Under the pieces are notes generated by a model that was not told where the DNA came from, did not search any database, and saw only the letters and a list, made by a program, of their open reading frames with translations. This document shows positions 26,250 through 29,194 of a stretch of DNA of 30,361 nt, in pieces. Source of the stretch: a virus; IMG/VR virus record IMGVR_UViG_3300042542_001733, positions 1 through 30,361 of that record; one strand, 5' to 3'. A program made the translations under genes and the position numbers. Each line of letters begins with the position of its first letter. Within the stretch, counting starts at the first letter, position 1.

Positions 26250-26555
26250 TCAGTTCCGGTTAATCGGCTTGCAGTAGATGGTGCCGTCGTTCGACACGCG
26301 GATCGCGCTCACGCGCCACGGGGCGCCCGACGAACTCACGTCCAGCACGAACGGGATTGGCGTGAAGGCCGGGATCGGGGTGCTGGCGGTGGTCGCCACA
26401 GCGCCGACGCCGACTTCGACGTAGCAAGCCTGATCCGACCAGACCAGCACACCCTGCGGGCCGGGTGCCCATGCAGTCGTGTTGCCTGCGCTGCCGGTGA
26501 AGGCGACGCTATAGGACGGATATGCGGTTTGATCGCAGGGATTAAGCAGTTCCAT
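26250..26555 (-). CDS. Small beta-rich protein, probable virion component
   Basis: A 101-residue protein with Gly/Ala/Pro-rich strands (SYSVAFTGSAGNTTAW, GVLVWSDQACYVEVGVGAVA) and a closing RVSAIRVSNDGTIYCKPINRN. Three cysteines are present. The pattern suggests a single beta-sandwich. It sits between the DUF5856 gene and the 53-residue gene in the head gene region; GAGG lies 7 bases upstream of the ATG. A capsid accessory role is likely but no family is recognised. Confidence 0.7.
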   Translation of the reverse strand: MELLNPCDQTAYPSYSVAFTGSAGNTTAWAPGPQGVLVWSDQACYVEVGVGAVATTASTPIPAFTPIPFVLDVSSSGAPWRVSAIRVSNDGTIYCKPINRN

Positions 26556-26564
26556 AGGTCAGCC

Positions 26565-26927
26565 TCACGCCAAAAATTTAAGTTTGTACAGGGTGGTGTA
26601 ATACAGCCCGAAAATCTCGTCGATGATATTCTGGATCGGTGTGCAATCCTTATCGACGACTTTATACCGCATTTCCATGAGGTCGTCCACTTGGCCTTCA
26701 AGGAACTCGACCACGTTGTTGGTCTTCTTAGCCGACATGAGCGTAATCGGGCCAATCAGGCCGTATTTGCCCTGATAGGCTTCGGCAAAGTTGTCCGCGA
26801 GGTCGATTATGCCTTCGTAGAACTTGCCCAGCGCCTTGTGCTTGGCAAAGCTGCGCGTGTTCAGGTGTGCGCTGTGCGTCACATCGCGGGCCAGAAACAG
26901 CATACCAACAAAATCAGCGCACTTCAT
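26565..26927 (-). CDS. DUF5856-type protein with Dps/ferritin-like residues
   Basis: A 120-residue, all-helical protein that I assign to the DUF5856 group of phage proteins. It carries H18, H21, H30, D45 and E49 in the first two helices (THSAHLNTRSFAKHKAL, then LADNFAEAYQG). The spacing H18-H30-D45-E49 equals that of four ferroxidase residues of Dps (E. coli H51, H63, D78, E82), while the fifth (D67) would be G34. A metal-binding four-helix fold is therefore possible. The ATG at 26927 overlaps the portal stop by one base (TGATG); a GTG 3 bases earlier is less likely. Its role in the virion or infected cell is unknown. Confidence 0.8.
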   Translation of the reverse strand: MKCADFVGMLFLARDVTHSAHLNTRSFAKHKALGKFYEGIIDLADNFAEAYQGKYGLIGPITLMSAKKTNNVVEFLEGQVDDLMEMRYKVVDKDCTPIQNIIDEIFGLYYTTLYKLKFLA

Positions 26928-29194
26928 CACATCAGTCCTTCAGGTGGTATTTCGCCTTCCATCGGCATTTCGCCGCCCATCGGCATCTCAGGAGGCATAC
27001 CGCCCTGTGGCATACCGCCACCCTGCATACCGATCACGTCGGCCATGTCGGGCATCTCGCGCATCTCAGGTGCCCCGTCGATCAGATCGCCGGTGTCCAT
27101 AGCGGCCGCGATGGTGTTCATCACGATCTCTTGAATTTGCTCTGGCGTCATGCCACCCGATACGACGCCGATACGCTTGGTTTCGGCGTTGTAGGCGTCG
27201 ATTTCGGACTTGTAGCGGTCGATCTCCACCTTCTGCTGTTCCGTGCTGTCCTGCACGTTTTGCAGGATATCCGTGACGCGGTTCAACTCCTGCGTCATGG
27301 CTTCGATCTGCTGCTGCGCGGCCATCATTTCGGGCGACTGATCGCCTTCCGACAGCACCTTGGGGTCCAAAATCTTCTTGAACCGCTGCGCCATTTCCTG
27401 CGCGCCGGGCCAGTCCATGTTCTTGATGAACAAATCGCCCGCCACAGCCCAAAGCTGCGGGTTGGACTGCAAAATCTGGCTCATCGCGTCGAGGGCTTCC
27501 TGACGCTTCGTCATGTAGCCCGGACCAGTCGTGACCATCACGTCGTAAACGCCGACGCTGGGGTTGTAGATTTTTTCGATCAAAGCGCCCGTGTCCATGT
27601 CGCGAATTTCCTTGACGGGTTCCTGCTGCATGGGGTTGAACTTGACCATATCGACTTCGCCATCGACGCCGATGATGCGGGCGATGCGCTGGGTGTCGTA
27701 AATCTTCGGGATGATGTCCACGATCTGACGGGTCAGGTGACGGATCGCACGGGCCAGATTGTCCACGTAGTGATACGTGCCGGTGTCACCCTGCTTTTCA
27801 CGCGCCACGATGGCCTTGGCGGACCTTTCGTTGCCGCCCATGCCCAGCGAGGCGTCGTACTGGCCTGTGGTGCCCTTGATGTCTTCAGCAGCCCCCATCT
27901 TGGCTTGGATCAAACCAGTCTGGGGCAACGGAGGCGGCGCACGCTGCGGTAAGGGGAGGACTGACCCGGCACCGTCCGTCACGTCGGGATTGACTTCCAG
28001 ATACGGCCAGTTGGTCGTATTGGCGGTCTTCCACTGCATTTCGTACCCTTCGAACTGGCCGCCATAGCCAATAAAGGGTGCCTTGGGTGCCAGCGCGAGC
28101 ATTTCGGCCTCTTGGCTGGTCCAATAGTTGTACATACGCTGCGCGTCTTTGGCGTTGCGCACGAGGCCTGAAATGTACATCCGGCCTTCGACTTCCCACT
28201 CGTTCCCGATGACGCGGACGACGGGTATCCACTTGCCCGGCCATTCGCGCTCTTCGAGCACGTCAAAGCCGTTGGTCTTCATCCACATGACCTTCTTGCG
28301 GTCTACCTCACGGCTGCGGATGGGCTTGCCGAACATACTCGACAACTGCTTGTCCCGCTGCGAACCGCGGAAAGCGGTCTGGTTGTCGGGGTACAGGTGC
28401 AGCGTGGCGCGCTCGTTTTCGTAGTAGAAATACTCGGCGATCCGGATGGTGTTCTCGGCCAGCCACTGCGCCATGCTTTCGTTGCCGACGCCCTGCGCCA
28501 TCAGCGTGCTGACGGGCGATGCGTCCGGGAACATCTCTTCGTATTCGGTCGTCAGGATATCCTGCGTAATGAAGCACCACTTGGCATCCGCACCGCACGG
28601 GTCTTGGATCGTGGGGTCCATGTAGACGCTGAAGGCGTTGCGCACGCGGCCGATCTTGATGTCCTGATCGAACGTCTCGTCGTTGCAGTACTCGGTCAGC
28701 AGGCGGATGTAGCCTTCGCCATACGTGACCTGATTGTCGCAGGCCGTGTCGTAGGCCACGTCGGCGTCTGACATATACTCAATGTGGCGCACCACACCGT
28801 TGAAAATCTCAGCGACCTGAACGTCAGCGTTGTCGTCGGCCGGGATGACCTTGCCTGATGGGCGGTTCTGGCGCTGCTCGTTCGTCACCATGCGGACGTG
28901 CTGGGGCAGCTTGTTGATCGTGAGGCACGGGCGCGCGTTGATGGTCTGGCCCTGCACGGACCCGCGGGTGGCGAGCACGTCCGCCGGCCACTGCCACTGG
29001 TTGTCGGGCGAGCCGGCCATGAAGCGCAGATCGTCCAACTCGTCCTCGCGGCTGTCAGAGTACGCAGCCATCGCCATCTGGAGACGGCTGCGCATGGTCG
29101 CCATCTTGTCGTCGTTGTCCTCAGACGACTTCGCCGGGTTGGACCCTACGTTGGCGACTTTGCCCGCCGTATTAATGCCTGTCGGATCGGCCAT
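26927..29194 (-). CDS. Portal protein, P22 gp1-like
   Basis: A 755-residue portal (P22 gp1 has 725), the dodecameric ring through which DNA enters and leaves the capsid. The stretch MRSRLQMAMAAYSDSREDELDDLRFMAGS, then QWPADVLATRG and RPCLTINKLPQHVRMVTNEQRQNRPS, is characteristic of the P22-type portal family. Residues 623-675 form a long Gln/Glu-rich helix likely to build a barrel, as in P22. The last 45 residues are a Met/Gly/Pro repeat tail (GGMPQGGMPPEMPMGGEMPM). The gene starts 4 bases after the 46-residue gene and overlaps the DUF5856 gene. Confidence 0.94.
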   Translation of the reverse strand: MADPTGINTAGKVANVGSNPAKSSEDNDDKMATMRSRLQMAMAAYSDSREDELDDLRFMAGSPDNQWQWPADVLATRGSVQGQTINARPCLTINKLPQHVRMVTNEQRQNRPSGKVIPADDNADVQVAEIFNGVVRHIEYMSDADVAYDTACDNQVTYGEGYIRLLTEYCNDETFDQDIKIGRVRNAFSVYMDPTIQDPCGADAKWCFITQDILTTEYEEMFPDASPVSTLMAQGVGNESMAQWLAENTIRIAEYFYYENERATLHLYPDNQTAFRGSQRDKQLSSMFGKPIRSREVDRKKVMWMKTNGFDVLEEREWPGKWIPVVRVIGNEWEVEGRMYISGLVRNAKDAQRMYNYWTSQEAEMLALAPKAPFIGYGGQFEGYEMQWKTANTTNWPYLEVNPDVTDGAGSVLPLPQRAPPPLPQTGLIQAKMGAAEDIKGTTGQYDASLGMGGNERSAKAIVAREKQGDTGTYHYVDNLARAIRHLTRQIVDIIPKIYDTQRIARIIGVDGEVDMVKFNPMQQEPVKEIRDMDTGALIEKIYNPSVGVYDVMVTTGPGYMTKRQEALDAMSQILQSNPQLWAVAGDLFIKNMDWPGAQEMAQRFKKILDPKVLSEGDQSPEMMAAQQQIEAMTQELNRVTDILQNVQDSTEQQKVEIDRYKSEIDAYNAETKRIGVVSGGMTPEQIQEIVMNTIAAAMDTGDLIDGAPEMREMPDMADVIGMQGGGMPQGGMPPEMPMGGEMPMEGEIPPEGLM

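Follow-up and report, generated by a model that had tools for sequence, protein, structure and literature searches.

In its passages on Dps, a 2021 survey counts seven Lactobacillus phages, the 'Gratiaviridae' and 36 other genomes as carriers of a phage-encoded Dps, and the DUF5856 family does not occur in those passages (PMC8008677). One member of that family is T4 RI.-1 (MobD.6), the product of a lysis-inhibition accessory gene that has had no biochemical function so far, and DUF5856 itself is listed as unknown. The passages on rI.-1 in one paper describe it as sharing an operon with rI, the antiholin gene, and report, citing Golec 2010, that its overexpression makes lysis inhibition slightly longer (PMC6832632). 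A frameshift with a premature stop in rI.-1 (L085:1962-2348) separates some laboratory T4 sublines (PMC8573959); the gene therefore appears to be dispensable in culture, and the frameshift is relevant to any test of it. In a literature search that left most subscription journals outside, we found no paper joining rI.-1 with Dps and none naming DUF5856.

The DUF5856 protein described here is encoded in a viral DNA stretch of 30,361 nucleotides (IMG/VR record IMGVR_UViG_3300042542_001733), referred to below as the window. Its gene, identified as that of a Dps-like mini-ferritin by sequence, family and fold searches, occupies 26565..26927 on the minus strand, running from an ATG at 26927 to a TGA stop at 26567-26565 and encoding 120 aa. 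A Shine-Dalgarno-like AAGGA (26936..26940, minus strand) is found 8 nt upstream of the start codon. The P22-like portal protein gene (26927..29194, minus strand; P22_portal match, 5e-165) ends on this start codon, its TGA stop sharing one base with the ATG in the sequence TGATG. The overlap suggests coupled, late expression, with presence in the virion possible. The genes on this strand follow the order portal, DUF5856, a 101-aa ORF, tail-fibre-like protein, scaffold and coat. A portal homologue was present in 75 of 80 loci from close relatives, usually ending at the DUF5856 start. The 101-aa ORF immediately 3' of the DUF5856 gene (26250-26555, minus strand) had no match when searched against Pfam and PHROG, and a homologue of it was seen in 59 of the 80 loci. 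We also observed a 72% identical copy of the window protein beside a portal homologue (L260:6001-6363) on CP070643.1, a 4.2-Mb contig labelled as a Betaproteobacteria chromosome. This copy could be part of a prophage or an assembly artefact, and it offers a hint as to the host group.

The window protein matched Pfam DUF5856 (PF19174) at 2e-21, with 77.3 bits against a curated cut-off of 34.6, and PHROG 858 at E 2e-26. Approximately 1,400 phage records contain a match to the family. T4 RI.-1 is a DUF5856/PHROG 858 member that has all ligand residues in common with the window protein, from which it differs by an N-terminal extension of ~12 residues and by the location of its gene beside rI rather than the portal gene. 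A scan of genome contigs for cellular homologues returned only 14 loci, all metagenome-assembled and ten of them with a portal homologue nearby, and thus revealed no clear cellular family.

Kinship of this family with Dps, which the preliminary description had proposed from residue spacing, was supported by a profile-to-PDB search, a profile-profile comparison with shuffles, Foldseek and reciprocal PHROG matches. When a 14-member profile was compared with all PDB sequences, the top five matches were Dps/NapA chains (best E 7e-4), and the alignments placed H21, H30, D45 and E49 on Dps ligands. A 60-member profile found NapA at 1e-4 among hits that included a small number of designed helical proteins of low complexity. 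Comparison of the family with an alignment of seven Dps sequences by hhalign gave a probability of 95.8% (E 7e-9) over 111 columns spanning the whole bundle, compared to 0.4% for a reversed profile and at most 0.9% for 100 column shuffles. With the five ligand columns masked, the probability was 63% and the score was twice that of the best shuffle. E. coli Dps matched PHROG 858 weakly (E 0.009), and a jumbo-phage member matched the phage Dps family, PHROG 3636, at E 1.6e-4. With E-values of up to 10 allowed, none of five family members matched Pfam Ferritin (PF00210), whereas E. coli Dps, run as a control, did so at 2e-22. We conclude that the DUF5856 family is very probably homologous to Dps and has a Dps-type fold. 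A chance resemblance between Dps and a generic four-helix bundle of other descent could draw on the designed helical proteins that score in the profile searches and on Foldseek E-values that are non-significant alone, but the reversal and shuffle controls, the masked-ligand comparison and the invariance of ligands at homologous positions strongly disfavor it and leave it highly improbable.

AlphaFold2, using a 60-row alignment, predicted the four-helix bundle that had been anticipated for the window protein, with a pLDDT of 95.2 and helices at residues 3-23, 27-55, 72-90 and 96-118. The model has no helix in the B-C loop, from residue 55 to residue 72, and the length of this loop ranges from 11 to 24 residues across the family. 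In a Foldseek search of the PDB with the predicted structure, the first eight matches were Dps or Dps homologues (probability 0.77-0.99, E 0.1-0.5, TM by query up to 0.67), and bacterioferritin appeared further down the list. With a jumbo-phage member, all 50 matches listed were Dps or Dps chimeras at a probability of 1.00. Because the Foldseek E-values for the two proteins are weak (0.02-0.5, with modest TM of ~0.5-0.67), the fold lends support but would not settle the matter alone, and it is the profile evidence that carries the case for Dps. Foldseek searches of BFVD also returned similar predicted folds among proteins of giant eukaryotic viruses, namely A0A481ZC29 of Pithovirus LCPAC404 (E 7e-4) and A0A7D3V608 of Fadolivirus (E 6e-3). 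From these models, the range of the DUF5856 fold may extend beyond phages.

Conservation was assessed in 208 distinct sequences, taken from phage records as well as from viral and genome contigs. D45 (codon 26793..26795, minus strand) and E49 (26781..26783, minus strand), the counterparts of Dps D78 and E82, were present in 208 of 208, and H21 (26865..26867, minus strand) and H30 (26838..26840, minus strand), the latter the counterpart of Dps H63, in all except one truncated sequence. H18 (26874..26876, minus strand), located one helical turn before H21, is near-invariant, occurring in 202 sequences and replaced by R or Q in five; NapA-type Dps proteins also have a His at the equivalent position. 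These residues thus do not vary freely. In a diverse set of 14 phage members with 25-75% identity to the window protein, H18, H21, H30, D45, E49 and D103 occur in every sequence. Position 34, the equivalent of Dps D67, is mostly N, G, A or Q, with D or E found in just 10 of the 208 sequences; it is G34 in the window protein, as the preliminary description had recorded.

That description had given the 120-residue length and the positions of H18, H30, D45 and E49, as well as of H21 and G34, exactly, and had equated the intervals of 12, 15 and 4 with those between Dps ligands. The numbers are right, and the H-x11-H-x14-D-x3-E pattern is rare, judging by its occurrence in 40 of 200,000 shuffles of the window protein and 4 times in 1.09 million residues from other ORFs. 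The H18-H30 interval, however, is not the homologous one, and the set that corresponds to Dps is H21/H30/D45/E49. In profile alignments, H21 pairs with Dps H51, a gap of 3 residues being introduced. Along H18-H21-H30-D45-E49, the most common set of intervals is 3-9-15-4 (196 sequences), followed by 3-13-15-4 (nine) and 3-12-15-4 (two). The eleven members in which H21 and H30 are 12 or 13 residues apart, mainly from jumbo phages, have a Gly-containing insertion, e.g., HLQITGEGSYAGH, similar to the loop of Dps (HWNMRGANFIAVH in E. coli). Because this insertion restores the 12-13 residue interval, we take H21 as the counterpart of the E. coli ferroxidase ligand H51. H18 was rejected for this role on the strength of the profile alignments, the interval restored in jumbo phages and the five members that lack it, and since the true counterpart is H21, the exact spacing from H18 is a coincidence within real homology. 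The preliminary description had mentioned H21 for its 'different register', and in this one detail it was wrong, as it is H21 and not H18 that corresponds to H51.

H30 is 15 and 19 residues from D45 and E49 along one helix, or about 22-28 Å. At this distance, the residues could share a metal only through a two-fold partner, so a site built from H21, H30, D45 and E49 would require a Dps-like dimer. We consider such a putative metal-binding intersubunit site likely. The window protein is very probably a divergent, minimal Dps-branch member of the ferritin-like fold. It most likely assembles into two-fold dimers of the Dps kind, and perhaps further into a cage, where iron would be bound jointly by the H21/H30 pair of one subunit and the D45/E49 pair of its partner. 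Fe(II) would be oxidised with peroxide or oxygen. With synthesis alongside the head proteins in the window phage, this could result in less Fenton damage to the phage DNA and the infected cell during head filling, late in infection. We favor with some confidence the view that the window protein is a Dps-type mini-ferritin whose binding and oxidation of iron would keep oxidative damage in check, and we hold to the same degree that iron oxidation would be its main function. The likelihoods that we attach to homology and fold, to the metal site, to iron oxidation and to virion presence are judgements rather than computed values.

The T4 data raise the question of whether a protein with the Dps fold could serve mainly in lysis timing or in other protein-protein regulation, as proposed for rI.-1, with any metal being structural only. 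The operon shared with rI and the slight extension of lysis inhibition upon overexpression, as given in the rI.-1 passages, fit such a role (PMC6832632). However, many relatives are encoded away from rI, phage RaK2 has an RI.-1 homologue without RI, RIII or T holin (PMC3622015), and the invariance is concentrated on redox-metal ligands, leaving lysis timing unlikely as the main function relative to iron oxidation.

Gene neighbors vary across the family: the portal gene in the window phage, rI in T4-like phages, endolysin and GroES genes in one group, and RusA, HNH and GroES genes in another. Since the position of the gene differs among phages, the portal link is lineage-specific, and the varied neighbors are more in keeping with an accessory protein from which many phages benefit than with a constant part of the head. 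GroES-like co-chaperonin genes were seen near DUF5856 in three unrelated phages (L082:3561-3809, L083:6540-7103 and L088:3904-4095), recurring in 36 of 80 L083-group loci and 18 of 80 L088-group loci and in 0 window-clade loci.

The neighbor data also bear on whether the protein belongs to the head near the portal, as a minor structural or an ejected component whose ligand residues hold a structural metal such as zinc. Direct coupling to the portal gene in the P22-like relatives would agree with this, as would the detection of gp108/gp100 of the T4-like Klebsiella phages ValerieMcCarty03/04 with 26/27 spectra in CsCl-purified virions (PMC13119998); by sequence, ValerieMcCarty03 gp108 (P0004) is a DUF5856-family member. 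These counts are above the authors' cut-off of 15 spectra yet outside the abundant virion components, and the same authors warn of low-count contamination (PMC13119998). With the different neighbors in other phage groups also weighing against it, we rate a head-protein function as slightly less probable still than one in lysis timing. In RaK2, the RI.-1 homologue gp015 is treated under host interaction and not as a structural protein, and the RaK2 virion list gives no support for virion presence. That the window protein is carried in the virion of the window phage is, in our judgement, possible but doubtful. N-terminal extensions resembling MK(K)F-x-x-F, with a capsid-targeting-like start (MKFxDF), were seen on the T4-like and jumbo-phage members L312, L304, L305, L085 and P0004 and are lacking in the window protein; as read from these motifs, the extensions might target the head, but they are given no weight in the argument. 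It is conceivable, though speculative, that the virions of many tailed phages, including T4 and its relatives, contain a minimal mini-ferritin that accompanies the genome and keeps iron and peroxide under control as the heads fill or in the first minutes of infection, and that the timing of lysis inhibition in T4 responds, via RI.-1, to the redox or iron state.

Database names point to a Dps-like protein that binds or condenses DNA, or to a transcription regulator. PHROG 858 is labelled 'starvation-inducible transcriptional regulator' and the protein of phage DSL-LC05 is named 'DNA binding protein', so a remote similarity to Dps was evidently noticed earlier; the regulator label itself appears to have been inherited from that similarity and is probably wrong and misleading. 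There is no basic N-terminal tail: members usually have 15-19 residues before H18, all of which are required for helix A. The pI values (6.3 for the window protein, 4.3-6.8 for the family) are also unfavorable to DNA binding, although E. coli Dps binds DNA while acidic overall. We find a DNA-binding or regulatory function improbable. A DNA-binding N-terminal tail in the window protein was rejected, as helix A runs from residue 3, with the proviso that a basic tail is not universal in Dps; DNA binding by way of such a tail is not supported, the protein beginning directly with helix A.

From the Dps-like identity and an invariant metal signature of the intersubunit type, iron binding and oxidation can be predicted as a concrete activity, which is testable in T4, the best-studied phage.

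Ferritin, bacterioferritin and rubrerythrin hold a di-iron site inside one bundle by means of ExxH motifs. DUF5856 proteins have the ferritin-like four-helix bundle in common with them, and an intrasubunit di-iron ExxH motif was absent from the invariant set of 42 DUF5856 representatives. The phage-encoded true Dps proteins (PHROG 3636) of Lactobacillus, Streptomyces and 'Gratiaviridae' phages, as described in the survey's Dps passages (PMC8008677), are of the same fold class and are likewise carried by phages; unlike DUF5856, they are ordinary Dps proteins detectable by sequence. With DUF5856 included, phages that encode ferritin-like proteins are far more numerous than the Dps counts in those passages (PMC8008677). 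Closest of all are the Dps/NapA proteins (E. coli Dps and the NapA proteins of H. pylori and B. burgdorferi; PF00210), which share with the family the four-helix bundle, a full-length profile alignment and the ligands H51/H63/D78/E82, matched by the invariant H21/H30/D45/E49, and in which the helix B His and the acidic ligands are likewise too distant for a one-subunit site. The family differs from Dps in lacking the fifth ligand, D67 (an Asp/Glu four residues after H63), and from Dps/NapA in an A-B turn that is 3 residues shorter in most members, while the window protein, at 120 aa compared to ~145-170, has no predicted B-C loop helix, no N-terminal tail and no PF00210 match.
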